A DNA stretch of 36,587 nt from Nitrospirota bacterium. GTDB taxonomy: Bacteria; Nitrospirota; Thermodesulfovibrionia; Thermodesulfovibrionales; UBA6898. A program made the position numbers and the translations under genes. The notes under the pieces were generated by a model that worked only from the letters and a program-made list of their open reading frames with translations, had not been told where the DNA came from and did no database searches. The stretch lies in contig JACRHE010000062.1 of the NCBI GenBank assembly GCA_016217695.1, positions 1-36,587 on the forward strand, read 5' to 3'. Within the stretch, counting starts at the first letter, position 1. Every line of letters starts with the position of its first letter. This document shows, piece by piece, positions 1 through 4,590 of the stretch.

Positions 1-441
1 AGAAAAGATAATGGCCAACAAAATGCAGGAATCGAGCCACGCTACAGGTGGAGGGTTAAGCATTGGAAAAATATAACCTAAGGATTCATCACTTGCCATA
101 TACTTTCGGGTAATGAGCTGATGAATGCACATCGCCTGAACAGTAAATAGCAAAAAGCTGTGAGTATACAAATTGTACTTGGCCTGAAGAGCGTACTGTT
201 TCAATATAACAACGATCCCAACCCCTTTGAAAAACACGACTTTCGGCAATGATACCGTAGGAGTCACCGGGAAGGAATTAAATATCTCATTTTCTTTGCC
301 TTCCTTGAGAATGATTGCCATTAGGAAAAAAATCCCCCATAGGGCAGCAGTCACGATGGCTAAGATGCTTATTATTTCCTGGCGAGAGCTAAAGTGAAAT
401 AGGGAAATGCATTGATAACAGCTGGCCAAAAACGTCATCAT
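1..441 (-). CDS. Truncated membrane protein of unknown function (runs off the left edge of the window)
   Basis: Not in the ORF track because it is open at the edge. Reverse-strand translation from ATG at 441: MMTFLASCYQCISLFHFSSRQEIISILAIVTAALWGIFFLMAIILKEGKENEIFNSF...LDSCILLAIIFS, with no stop to position 1. Hydrophobic segments suggest TM helices. ATG overlaps the stop of the upstream ORF (ATGA). Confidence 0.6.
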   Translation of the reverse strand, partial: MMTFLASCYQCISLFHFSSRQEIISILAIVTAALWGIFFLMAIILKEGKENEIFNSFPVTPTVSLPKVVFFKGVGIVVILKQYALQAKYNLYTHSFLLFTVQAMCIHQLITRKYMASDESLGYIFPMLNPPPVAWLDSCILLAIIFS

Positions 442-1058
442 GCCTGGAAGACGCAGTTCACCTCGGACATACTGCCCGGCAGTTTATCCCGGCTATCTAT
501 CTTCTGAGCTTCCTTCACAAGCACATCAAATGTTTTTCGGAGTTCAAAGACGACTGAGGGATCTTCATATATGCTGTAGGGACGCACCGTCTGACCGTGT
601 TCGTGTTTATCCTCCAAATATGCATAATCGTCGTCACATATCCTGAAATGCTGCGGAGGCTCTGTCCTATAACAGTAAACTTCAAATCTATCCTTGTTAT
701 TAAAAACGGTGTCCCAAAAAGCCGTGCTCTTTTCCATGGAGTCGTGGCACGCAGTAGGCCCGATCAGCATTTTCACCTTGAGGGACTGCAGCTTCTTCTG
801 AACAGCCGGGTCGGCAAAGACATCATGCAAAACCTTGGGCGCCGTCATGCCACAAACTAATTCATATTCGCTCTTGGCCCTATCGATTTCACTCTTTATG
901 AAGTTGCGCGCTTTCTTGTTATCGTTGGTACCCCGACCGAAATCGGTCTTGGAGCGATATAGAAGATATGCCAAGGGCCACACAAAAGCGAAGAATAAAG
1001 TGACAAATACTACGATACCCGCTATCGCTTCCCAGCGGTTGATGCTTTCAGGCAACAT
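438..1058 (-). CDS. Membrane-anchored, possibly PLD-like (degenerate HKD) protein
   Basis: 206-aa ORF with N-terminal TM segment (IAGIVVFVTLFFAFVWPLAYLLY). C-terminal part contains HFRICDDDYAYLEDKHEHG, resembling a single degenerate HxK/R-x4-D motif. Confidence 0.5.
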   Translation of the reverse strand: MLPESINRWEAIAGIVVFVTLFFAFVWPLAYLLYRSKTDFGRGTNDNKKARNFIKSEIDRAKSEYELVCGMTAPKVLHDVFADPAVQKKLQSLKVKMLIGPTACHDSMEKSTAFWDTVFNNKDRFEVYCYRTEPPQHFRICDDDYAYLEDKHEHGQTVRPYSIYEDPSVVFELRKTFDVLVKEAQKIDSRDKLPGSMSEVNCVFQA

Positions 1059-1348
1059 TGTTTGATCCCCTTATGTGCATTCCTTTCGTAAAATATACGG
1101 ATTCGCGTTTACCATGTCAAGCATTTTCTCTCGCTCTCGCAAGCAAGCCGCATGCCATTTAGACGCTTTCGATCTCAGCGCTCGCGATCCCCTTTTAATA
1201 TTTATCGTCAAATCCGAGCCGCTGCTTTAGGCGATTTGTCTATATGTCATGGCGATACGAGGATAACCGGGCAACTCAGCCTATCCTGAGCCATTCCTCA
1301 TTGAAAAAGTAATATATATACAAGACTGCAACTTAAGGAGGTCTCAGA

Positions 1349-1534
1349 ATGGCAAAGCCAATCGTTTCAATCAATGTTTTCAGTGGGACAACTCTTGAGG
1401 AGGCTGCCGAAAAAGCAACCCGGTTCTTTTCGGCAACCCCTCCCGACCAATTTAAAGGATTTCAAATAGTTAAAGAGGACAAGGAATATAAAATTCTCAC
1501 CTCTTCCTTTAATTGGAAGGACGCGGGAGATTAG
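1349..1534 (+). CDS. Small hypothetical protein (61 aa)
   Basis: ATG preceded by a strong Shine-Dalgarno (aaggaggtctcagaATG); in-frame stop at 1534. Confidence 0.6.
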   Translation: MAKPIVSINVFSGTTLEEAAEKATRFFSATPPDQFKGFQIVKEDKEYKILTSSFNWKDAGD

Positions 1535-1728
1535 AGATATTCTGATTCTTGATAAAATATTGCTAGTACCATATCAGGTCCTTGCATGTTGGGTGAAGAT
1601 ATTACAACTTCGGCAATTTCGATTGTTGGGTTTTGGCTGAGCCAAGAATTAATTCGTTCTTCCAGCTTCGGTATCTTATCTTCACTCTGTTCTTCGATAA
1701 ATAGCTTACATTGGTAGCCTTTCCGCAT
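1531..1728 (-). CDS. Small hypothetical protein (65 aa)
   Basis: ATG preceded by AAAGGAGAGTCC on the minus strand; convergent with and 4 nt overlapping 1349..1534. Confidence 0.6.
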   Translation of the reverse strand: MRKGYQCKLFIEEQSEDKIPKLEERINSWLSQNPTIEIAEVVISSPNMQGPDMVLAIFYQESEYL

Positions 1729-1756
1729 GGACTCTCCTTTCTGTGTTATTTAATAA

Positions 1757-1819
1757 ATTCAGCTTCTCGCAGTTCTTGGCCCACACCCTGCTTCGTGCGC
1801 TTTTGACCCCGAGCTGAAT
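1757..1819. repeat. Inverted repeat ATTCAGCT...AGCTGAAT (8-bp arms) upstream of the 65-aa ORF
   Basis: attcagct at 1757-1764 and agctgaat at 1812-1819 are exact reverse complements. Confidence 0.35.
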
Positions 1820-1890
1820 ATCATTTTTGTCTCCTACACTCTCAGGCTGCCCTGGACTAATGTGCAAAATGGATATCTATCCTCTCCTAT

Positions 1891-3582
1891 CTATCTTTCC
1901 TTGCGAAGTACGACACCTTCAATTCTTTTTAAAAGCCTTTGTCGCCACATTTGATAATGCTCATCCTCTTTATCCGTCGGATGTTTCTTGCGTAAAAAAG
2001 TGAGCCCCTGTTCTTGAAAGTATTTTTCGATCGCCTCAATTGCATCGCGCTTGACGAACATATCGAGGAACTGGAGGATCTCCTCCTGCGATATAGTGGC
2101 GCCATCGGGGTCTGTAAGAACATAGGTTGAAGTGGTCGAAAGCAGTCCGTTCTGGTTTATCTCAATGAGACATGTCGATCTCGACTTATAATTGAATCCG
2201 ACACGCAGGTATTTCCTTCTTATTTTATGCTCCTTGTCGGAAAACTCCCATAGGGATCCCTTCGCGCTCCTCCCAGAGCGTATGGGCATGGCAAGTGGAC
2301 CTACCATTTGAAAATCCTTGACATCCTCTTGTTTTGCGAGAGGATTGACCAAGTTCTGAAAGTCATCCAGGGAGAAACTCTCTTTGTGGCGTATCTCGGG
2401 TTCTAGGGGCTCAGCCGGCTTTATTTCGCCGTGTCTGACTTCTGGGTTTCCGTCTGCTTTAGATTCCTGTAAACTCAGATCGGCTTTCCCTTTACCAGTG
2501 GCCCCAGGAGGGACAGTTAAGCCTTCTTTACCAGTTTTTGTTTCATATTCTTTATCTATTATCATATTGTCTTTGTGGACATTCTTCGGAGGGGCTGAGT
2601 TCTTCACGTCGGCGTTTGTCAACTCGGAGGAGGGCACCCTAACGGTGACGATATTTGTTGTGCGTCGTGCCTTCGCTCTTCTTTTTACATCGACTGTTCT
2701 CGATTCCCCATGTATCCGCTCTATAGTAACTCTATCGAAATCGAAGGGGCTGTTTTCCTCAACAATTTCAAGAACCAGGATCTTCTCTTTGCCCAACTTC
2801 GGATAATAGCGGCAGACAGCCCGGACTACCATAGTAAGTTCCGTAGCGACGGGAAAGTCTGTGATGAGTGGAACGTTCGTATCGCTTCCGCGTTTCGGAT
2901 TGTGTTGGGTTTGCTGTCTCTGGCTATCCCGCAGTCTATTGACGATCGAATGCCATTGTCTATTAGCGTTTTTGTTCGTGGCAAACCTTATGATGTCCGC
3001 AGCATCGCGGTCGGCGGCGTTTGTCTTGAGGTGTATCTTGGCATGTCTGCTGATCGAGTTAACATGTAGGCTATTGGGCTCGTAAAGACCATTGAGGGAC
3101 TGAGCAAAAAGTTGACGGCACATCGAGGCAGAAGTGAAGTAATAGGTAGCGCCCAGAACAAAACATGGGAAAATGACTTCGTGAGTATCGTCTTCGATAA
3201 CGACGCAGTATTGGGACTTGCTGTAGATGACTCTGTCATGGCGAAGATCGTATAGATCGTCCGAGAATGCCTCTCCTGCGGTCTTGACAAACTTTCTTAC
3301 AGGCGATTTTGTCGAGATCCTGACCAGCTCTCCCTCCTCGGCAGGATTTTGGAGACGCTGGCCGTTTATATAGAAGGCCCCTGGAGCATATACGAATAGC
3401 TGTTCCGGGGCGATCTTGGTAGTCAGGTACTTGCCGTTCGCCTCTATATGCTTAAAAAGAACCCTGAACTGATGATCCAATGTGTCTAAATTTTGCACCC
3501 ACACCAGCCGAAAGATCTTGTCCTTGTTTTCTCCTTCCTGCATTTCTTCAATAACTAATGACGAAAGGTCGCTCTCGATCAA
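1891..3582 (-). CDS. tnsE: TnsE-like Tn7-family target-selection protein (563 aa, TTG start)
   Basis: By-eye resemblance to remembered Tn7 TnsE: the 'IPxxELARxLFxxxxxxxRxxF' region matches FPCFVLGATYYFTSASMCRQLFAQSLNGLY; a 'LVxEIxxxE' region matches ILVLEIVEENSPFDFD; the C-terminal 'LLEVDxSDxxxxLSTxxL' matches CLIEINQNGLLSTTSTYVL, followed by a late HP motif (KKHPTDK). It also sits next to a Tn7-like end. No alignment was run. Confidence 0.6.
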   Translation of the reverse strand: MIESDLSSLVIEEMQEGENKDKIFRLVWVQNLDTLDHQFRVLFKHIEANGKYLTTKIAPEQLFVYAPGAFYINGQRLQNPAEEGELVRISTKSPVRKFVKTAGEAFSDDLYDLRHDRVIYSKSQYCVVIEDDTHEVIFPCFVLGATYYFTSASMCRQLFAQSLNGLYEPNSLHVNSISRHAKIHLKTNAADRDAADIIRFATNKNANRQWHSIVNRLRDSQRQQTQHNPKRGSDTNVPLITDFPVATELTMVVRAVCRYYPKLGKEKILVLEIVEENSPFDFDRVTIERIHGESRTVDVKRRAKARRTTNIVTVRVPSSELTNADVKNSAPPKNVHKDNMIIDKEYETKTGKEGLTVPPGATGKGKADLSLQESKADGNPEVRHGEIKPAEPLEPEIRHKESFSLDDFQNLVNPLAKQEDVKDFQMVGPLAMPIRSGRSAKGSLWEFSDKEHKIRRKYLRVGFNYKSRSTCLIEINQNGLLSTTSTYVLTDPDGATISQEEILQFLDMFVKRDAIEAIEKYFQEQGLTFLRKKHPTDKEDEHYQMWRQRLLKRIEGVVLRKER

Positions 3583-3680
3583 CGTTTTCTATCCCTCTGA
3601 TAAATAAGCATTATTAGGCATTTCATTCGCGGCGGGGGTATATCATCGTAATGGTTCGAAAGGGAAGGTTATAGGGTCTT

Positions 3681-3727
3681 CAGTTGGATTATATTGGTTA
3701 CAGTTGGAATATCTTTGAAATCTTACA
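3681..3727 (-). other. Putative transposon terminal region with TnsB-type binding repeats
   Basis: CAGTTGGATTATATTGGTTA (3681-3700) directly followed by CAGTTGGAATATCTTTGAAA (3701-3720), exact 20-bp phase, then the terminal TGTAAGA (minus) at 3727-3721. Confidence 0.5.
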
Positions 3728-4590
3728 CCGCCTCCGATGAGCGCAACATCCGATATAGTATGATGGGGAGCGCGAAAAGGCCTCGTTGCCAAAAGAGGCT
3801 GGGCATCCTTGAGCAGCCCCGCTATGCTGTGGATCCTGGTTGTCTCCATCGCCTCATCAAAGGTCATATTGGGAAGGATCGAGGCAACGCGTTTTGCAAG
3901 CATCGTCTTTCCCGACCCAGGAGGCCCTACCATCAGGACGTTATGCCCTCCGGCTGCAGCAACCTCAAGCGCCCGCTTCGCATGCTCCTGACCTTTCACC
4001 TCTGAAAAATCATCCTCATAGACCGAATATGCCCTCATCGTCCCGGCTATATCGACAGTCACATGTGGAACCCCTTTTCCGTCCTTCAGAAAATCCACCA
4101 CTTCAGGAAGGCTCTTCATGCCAAAGACCTTTACCCCCCTGACCACAGCTGCCTCAGGCGCATTCTCGACAGGCAGGATGATCCCCTTCAGGCCTGAGTC
4201 CCTTACCATAATCGCCATCGAAAGGGCTCCCCTTACCGGTTTAATCCTGCCGTCGAGGGAGAGCTCGCCGGTAAAGAGATACCCGCTTAAGGCCTCGGGT
4301 TCAAGCAGTCCTTCAGAGGCGATGATACCCACAGCGACCGGCAGGTCAAAGGCTGAACCCTCTTTCTTGAGGTCAGCAGGCGCTAAATTTACGGTAATCT
4401 GCTTTAACGGAAAATTAAATCCGATGTTCTTGAGGGATGCTCTGACCCTGTCACGACTCTCCTTGACTGCTGCGTCGGGAAGTCCGACCATCGAAAAATG
4501 GGGAAGTCCCCGGTTGGATATATCGACCTCTACCTCTACGCTGAATGCCTCGATCCCAACTACACTTGCGCTTAATACCTTTGAAAGCAT
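3728..4590 (-). pseudogene. comM: ComM / YifB-type Mg-chelatase-like AAA ATPase, 5' fragment interrupted by insertion
   Basis: N-terminal ComM domain and Walker A (GPPGSGKTMLAKR) present. Homology ends at RPFRAPHHTISDVALIGGG, where intact ComM normally continues with [23 protein letters not shown]. The reading frame then runs into element sequence (VRFQRYSNC...), stopping at 3643. Confidence 0.85.

Follow-up and report, generated by a model that had tools for sequence, protein, structure and literature searches.

A Tn7-like transposon interrupting comM in a Nitrospirota bacterium, with probable target selection by TniQ in place of TnsF

The window analyzed here, a 36,587-nucleotide stretch of Nitrospirota DNA, carries a comM gene interrupted by a mobile element. 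The first 3,727 bases are quite probably the left, TnsE-bearing end of a Tn7-like transposon inserted in comM, whose TniQ would read the comM target without TnsF and for which TnsE would provide a second route. The comM gene helps bacteria recombine DNA that they have taken up. Insertion into comM has so far been explained by the selector TnsF (Tn6022, Tsy) or by a crRNA (I-B1 CAST). An element that, in a distant lineage, enters comM at nearly the same base but has no TnsF hints at an additional route, and it offers a natural comparison for the gain of specificity by TniQ.

The split comM gene and its junctions

The minus-strand ORF at positions 3643 to 4590 corresponds to ComM through residue ~288 (...DVALIGGG, ...RPFRAPHHTISDVALIGGG) and then switches in mid-frame to 27 unrelated residues (VRFQRYSNCNQ...), as an earlier, sequence-only reading of this DNA had described. 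Pfam analysis of the truncated frame identified ChlI (4.5e-46), and the Mg_chelatase profile was covered only at positions 1 to 96 of 207. The interruption lies between window bases 3727 and 3728, at the GGG codons that precede Walker B. The junction reads GGAGGCGG/TGTAAGATTT along the ORF and ...ATCGGAGGCGG/TGTAAGATTTCAAAGATATTCC in the comM sense (slashes mark junctions), with base 3727 as the outermost base of the element.

The window is the entire contig C4 of a 3.04-Mb draft genome of 221 contigs, estimated to be 87% complete, and the 3′ half of comM thus could not appear in it. The continuation noted earlier as missing is present on contig C116 (15749-16039, minus strand), as the sole match to the ComM C-terminal family searched across the genome, and its frame continues to the normal ComM end. 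The sequence upstream of this half is ...TTCTTACA/GGCGGTCAG, and the 3′ junction in the comM sense is ...TATATTTCTTACA/GGCGGTCAGACACC. GGCGG forms an exact 5-bp target duplication with one copy per junction. The 3′ half, a second TGT...ACA end and the GGCGG duplication of about 5 bp had all been predicted for an extension of the contig, and all three were found on C116.

When the two comM flanks are joined, they encode a 510-residue protein that aligns over residues 1 to 510 with intact ComM proteins of relatives and is up to 86% identical to them. Such a comparison with uninterrupted relatives had been proposed, and it shows the joined protein to be collinear with theirs. In most of the 40 relatives compared with it, some of them from the same family, comM is intact and collinear; as judged from these alignments, this is the empty site. 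The exact 5-bp duplication, the 7-bp terminal match, the TnsB-like repeats at both ends, the tnsABC-tniQ genes at the second end and a matching junction in a relative together establish that the junction is more than chance.

That relative, G288, belongs to another genus of the same family. Its comM is cut at the same base (...GGCGGCGG/TGTAAGATTACAAAGATATTCCAACTGTAACCAATATAATC), and its TnsE is 56% identical to that of the window; past the tnsE-comM end, its assembled part has no DNA match to the window. Since comM is intact in G213, of the same genus as G288, the insertions in G288 and in the present genome appear most simply to be independent.

As Walker B and the C-terminal half are lost, the insertion should abolish ComM function. 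Divergent or long heterologous DNA that enters the cell would then recombine less readily, which may protect the element from removal by transformation. In Acinetobacter baumannii, loss of comM is associated with lower transformation and has been argued to guard elements from deletion by transformation (PMC11472951).

Table 1. Features of the window, followed by two comM genes of other genomes that are interrupted twice.
Feature	Position	Strand	Basis or remark
Left-end segment of the Tn7-like element, running off the contig at base 1	1..3727	-	Remainder on C116:16400-47834
Cargo ORF running off the contig, no family	1..441	-	Pfam
Cargo ORF, 206 aa, no family	438..1058	-	Pfam: none above cut-off; PADLOC: no match
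Small cargo ORF, 65 aa, no family	1531..1728	-	Pfam
tnsE, divergent, 563 aa, on the strand opposite to tnsABC, ~145 bp from the left end	1891..3582	-	Foldseek, Pfam
Element-derived codons (27) and stop, read-through of the truncated comM frame	3643..3727	-	ORF translation
TnsB-site-like end repeat 2, GTAACCAATATAATCCAACTGAA	3679..3701	-	Motif comparison
TnsB-site-like end repeat 1, ATTTCAAAGATATTCCAACTGTA; motif recurs four times in the right end	3699..3721	-	Motif comparison
Left terminal sequence TGTAAGA; right end at C116:16400 starts with the same 7 bases	3721..3727	-	End comparison
One GGCGG copy of the target-site duplication; the other is on C116 beside the comM 3′ half	3728..3732	-	Junction sequences
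comM 5′ part, first ~288 codons	3728..4590	-	ORF, Pfam, alignment of joined halves
comM interrupted twice, Cyclobacteriaceae (L156, L145, L133)	G402:C3:32761-92634		
comM interrupted twice, Pseudomonas grimontii (L157, L153)	G410:C26:14213-53993		

Ends, transposition genes and cargo

The known sequence of the element consists of 31,435 bp on C116 and the 3,727 bp of the window, separated by an unassembled gap. The strand and order of C116 and C4 are consistent with one single element; placed end to end, the two contigs share no overlap. The end repeats are ~23 bp long, with a consensus near AAGATATTCCAACTG, and their asymmetric layout, two at the left end and four at the right, is as would be expected for Tn7 ends. 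The Tn7-superfamily TGT terminus proposed earlier for the junction was borne out, with TGTAAGA at both ends and tnsABC-tniQ on C116.

At the right end, tnsA, tnsB, tnsC and tniQ lie together (L008 643-5337), tnsC being of the TniB family. Pfam detected TnsA (1.4e-12), TniB/TnsC (1.2e-59) and TniQ (3e-28). The Pfam domain of TnsB is weak (0.015), with full-length homology at 1e-109, 37-38% identity to annotated Tn7-like transposases, and DDE residues D231, D317 and E353 that are invariant in the alignment. The element thus combines the hallmarks of a Tn7-like transposon, namely TnsA, TnsB, TnsC and TniQ near one end, a 5-bp duplication, TGT/ACA ends and repeated TnsB sites. By analogy with established Tn7 biology, TnsB and TnsA would excise the element and TnsB would join it to the target, with TnsC as the bridge.

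The 563-aa protein of the left end is identified, from its predicted structure, as a divergent TnsE target selector. The Pfam TnsE_C profile scored 0.018, under the cut-off, and a sequence search of the PDB returned only a chance match to ThreeFoil; TnsE was recognized by structure comparison instead. The structure model is confident in the C-terminal domain only, and the top seven Foldseek matches are all to the C-terminal domain of TnsE (9d5l, 5d17, 5d16), at probabilities of 0.99-1.00 and a best E value of 9e-3, with nothing else close. The protein is 56-63% identical in two relatives whose elements have the same end. A TnsE query against plasmids gave no matches.

The cargo on C116 includes an RHS-repeat protein, zinc-dependent phospholipase C-like proteins and an integrase-core fragment. 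A c-di-GMP-I riboswitch precedes the 2353-aa RHS-repeat protein (L008:15822-15901; C116:31822-31901, minus strand). Putative defence-type cargo is found at L009:11859-17612 (C116:41859-47612), with a metallo-beta-lactamase-fold protein (PDC-M48B model, 4.5e-135), a calcineurin-like phosphoesterase, an LmuA-like protein and an E2-E1-JAB fusion; the metallo-beta-lactamase-fold proteins and the E2-E1-JAB protein are likely a defence module.

Selection of comM as the target

TniQ, not TnsF, is the likeliest selector of comM in this element. We propose that TniQ itself reads the comM DNA around the Walker B codons, which would result in insertion at the GGG codons, and that TnsE would open a second route that leads to conjugating elements. 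The positive controls G400 and G409 were strongly detected by a TnsF profile constructed for this analysis, which placed TnsF directly behind tniQ in nine elements; TnsF has this position in every TnsF-bearing element seen. The profile gave nothing significant in the sequenced parts of the present element or in the whole present genome (G000), and no TnsF-like frame follows tniQ. In the tree of TnsB proteins, the element falls in a starred 17-row clade, mostly of Campylobacterota, that has no TnsF row and includes L019, also inserted in comM. The profile found no TnsF in G288 or in most relatives, nor in the genomes of L017, L018, L019, L039, L041, L042, L045, L046 and L048.

In genomes of Thalassospira (G403), Undibacterium (G404) and Cyclobacteriaceae (G402), TnsF-less elements lie between two comM halves of a single contig; the halves are 41 kb apart in G403 and 48 kb apart in G404. 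Capture of comM without a detectable TnsF is therefore not peculiar to the present draft genome. The duplication register ACA/GGNGG is common to the present element and L019, and begins 1 bp before that of the TnsF-bearing elements examined (GNGGN). The elements with the nearest TnsB, L017 and L018, were not found in comM, indicating that site specificity cannot be read from the TnsB tree. A TniQ query returned nothing in named genomes and only two weak, distant matches in its phylum. A fold search with TniQ matched TnsD and many TniQs alike, and thus does not separate direct DNA reading from partner-dependent targeting.

The main alternative, which we consider unlikely, is that an ordinary Tn6022-type element entered comM by means of TnsF and that its TnsF gene is hidden in the gap between the contigs or has since been lost. 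The comM selector of Tn6022 has been shown by experiment to be TnsF (PMC10293859). The present element occupies the same gene at nearly the same base, its left-end TnsE is on the opposite strand as in Tn6022 (PMC10293859), and its missing middle could hold a displaced selector gene, TnsF or other. Against this, the place directly after tniQ where TnsF would be expected is sequenced here and lacks it, the profile found none in G288 or across the TnsF-less clade, and the three genomes with both comM halves on one contig show interruption by elements without TnsF.

Comparison with Tn6022/AbaR bears on the same question. Both have tnsA, tnsB, tnsC, tniQ, a remote, opposite-strand tnsE near the left end, TGT...ACA ends and a 5-bp duplication, and both interrupt comM ahead of Walker B (PMC10293859). 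The present element differs in that no TnsF was detected behind tniQ or in the rest of the sequenced genome, in its TnsB clade, in a duplication that begins 1 bp earlier and in a host other than Acinetobacter. Of the traits that define the Tn6022/AbaR group (Faure et al. 2023), the comM insertion before Walker B and the opposite-strand TnsE near the left end are present, while a TnsF operon with a short TniQ was not found in the sequenced part, and the transposase tree does not group the element with those that bear TnsF. The element works like Tn6022/AbaR, yet it is not a full member of that group. The sequence-only reading had recognized an AbaR/Tn6022-like site in a different background. 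This holds for the superfamily, for what is essentially the same comM site and for the non-Acinetobacter host, but the duplication is shifted by 1 bp (GGCGG versus GNGGN), and the kinship is not simply with that group, given the TnsF-less TnsB clade.

RNA-guided insertion by a CRISPR-associated Tn7-like element carrying a comM crRNA, of the type I-B1 kind, is very improbable. Guides against comM are known in I-B1 CASTs (PMC11406308), but no cas gene is among the Pfam matches of the sequenced cargo, no tandem array was found in L009, and no match of at least 13 bases links the sequenced element to the comM site. Still less probable is placement by TnsE with comM as a chance target: a TnsE is present and the element of relative G359 lies beside conjugation genes, but recurrence contradicts placement by TnsE only, as one and the same comM base was hit by this element family at least twice independently, and many other insertions lie at nearly that base. 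An assembly chimera at 3728, conceivable in so fragmented a draft, has a negligible probability and was rejected on the second junction, with its matching duplication and end, and on the same junction in the independently assembled G288.

Relatives of the element and the sites they occupy

Selection of comM by TniQ with TnsE as a second route can be set against the location of related elements. In G359, from another family of the order, an element with the same left end and a 63% identical TnsE (L123:3100-18210, G359:C17) is inserted in an AAA_13 gene beside TraK, TrbI and thioredoxin/TraF-like genes. This conjugative context would be in line with a TnsE that guides the element to transfer-proficient DNA. 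Together with the comM insertion in G288, it suggests that the element family may have two pathways, one to comM and the other to conjugative elements. Searches for TnsB gave nothing in either G288 or G359, so the transposase ends are unassembled or lost there.

Among other elements, L014, on plasmid pHRV44 of Nitrosophilus labii, resembles the present one in its tnsABC-tniQ genes, distant, far-side opposite-strand TnsE, lack of TnsF and membership of the same starred 6-row TnsB clade. It differs in being plasmid-borne, in lying outside comM and in having two tnsAB pairs, with TnsB 37-38% and TniQ about 29-31% identical; its two tnsA-tnsB pairs are in tandem and precede a single tnsC-tniQ. L019, from a Campylobacterales MAG, shares the clade, the comM insertion, its register and the lack of TnsF, and differs in sequence (TnsB 40%, TniQ 33% identical) and in having its comM halves on separate contigs. 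With prototype Tn7 the element shares the TnsABC machinery, a TniQ/TnsD-family selector together with TnsE, and asymmetric ends with repeated TnsB sites; unlike in Tn7, its tnsE is divergent and at the opposite end, and the target is inside comM rather than downstream of glmS. The tyrosine-recombinase transposon Tsy, which is not a DDE/TnsABC element, also uses comM near Walker B (PMC10293859); no tyrosine recombinase was found in the sequenced part of the present element.

TnsE genes are present in 30 of 399 Campylobacterales genomes, and 30 loci were sorted by what lies past the left end. Of these, 17 (L160-L172, L174-L176, L188) are at the 3′ end of mnmG and two (L177, L189) at that of argJ, both genes remaining essentially whole. 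The interior of dprA is occupied in four and the GGG codons of comM in two, and five have no assigned site. In G401, the two halves of dprA lie 34.6 kb apart on a single contig; the insertion between them is marked by a GTTTC duplication and has tnsABC-tniQ at one of its ends and TnsE at the opposite one. Interruptions of dprA are found at L023/L158/L159 (G401:C8:271719-306839), L179, L180, L181 and L187; the insertion point is at about the same codons (after ...NTI) in three of the four and elsewhere in one.

Two of the four recognized sites, comM and dprA, are natural-transformation genes and are disrupted, and the mnmG and argJ sites are gene ends. Switching among fixed sites in Campylobacterales fits targeting by a variable TniQ. 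In the literature searched, outside which lie most subscription journals, dprA, mnmG and argJ are not mentioned as Tn7-like sites, which is weak evidence of novelty. With dprA as a second interrupted site in the clade, the idea that elements disable transformation for self-preservation becomes testable outside Acinetobacter. Tentatively, with slightly less than even confidence, we suggest that in this TnsF-free, TnsE-bearing clade TniQ, or another selector, evolves new sites, repeatedly comM and dprA, and that disabling transformation is a recurrent strategy.

Several further arrangements were observed. In Sedimenticola sp., a single 980-codon frame of a comM-inserted element matches both TniQ and TnsF, a natural fusion (L022:12679-15618). 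The TnsF-less comM element of Thalassospira xianhensis (L046:13583-16608) has a phage-integrase-family protein and a 690-aa protein of unknown kind beside tniQ on the opposite strand, a possible other selector. The TnsF element L013 of A. baumannii has no comM half within its 42 kb. Insertions of Tn7-like elements in comM also occur in Planctomycetota (L061, with TnsF) and in Cyclobacteriaceae of the Bacteroidota (L041, without TnsF), making comM a site across several phyla. Finally, in each of two genomes a single comM holds two insertions, one at the residue-288 site and the other near residue 88 (Table 1).
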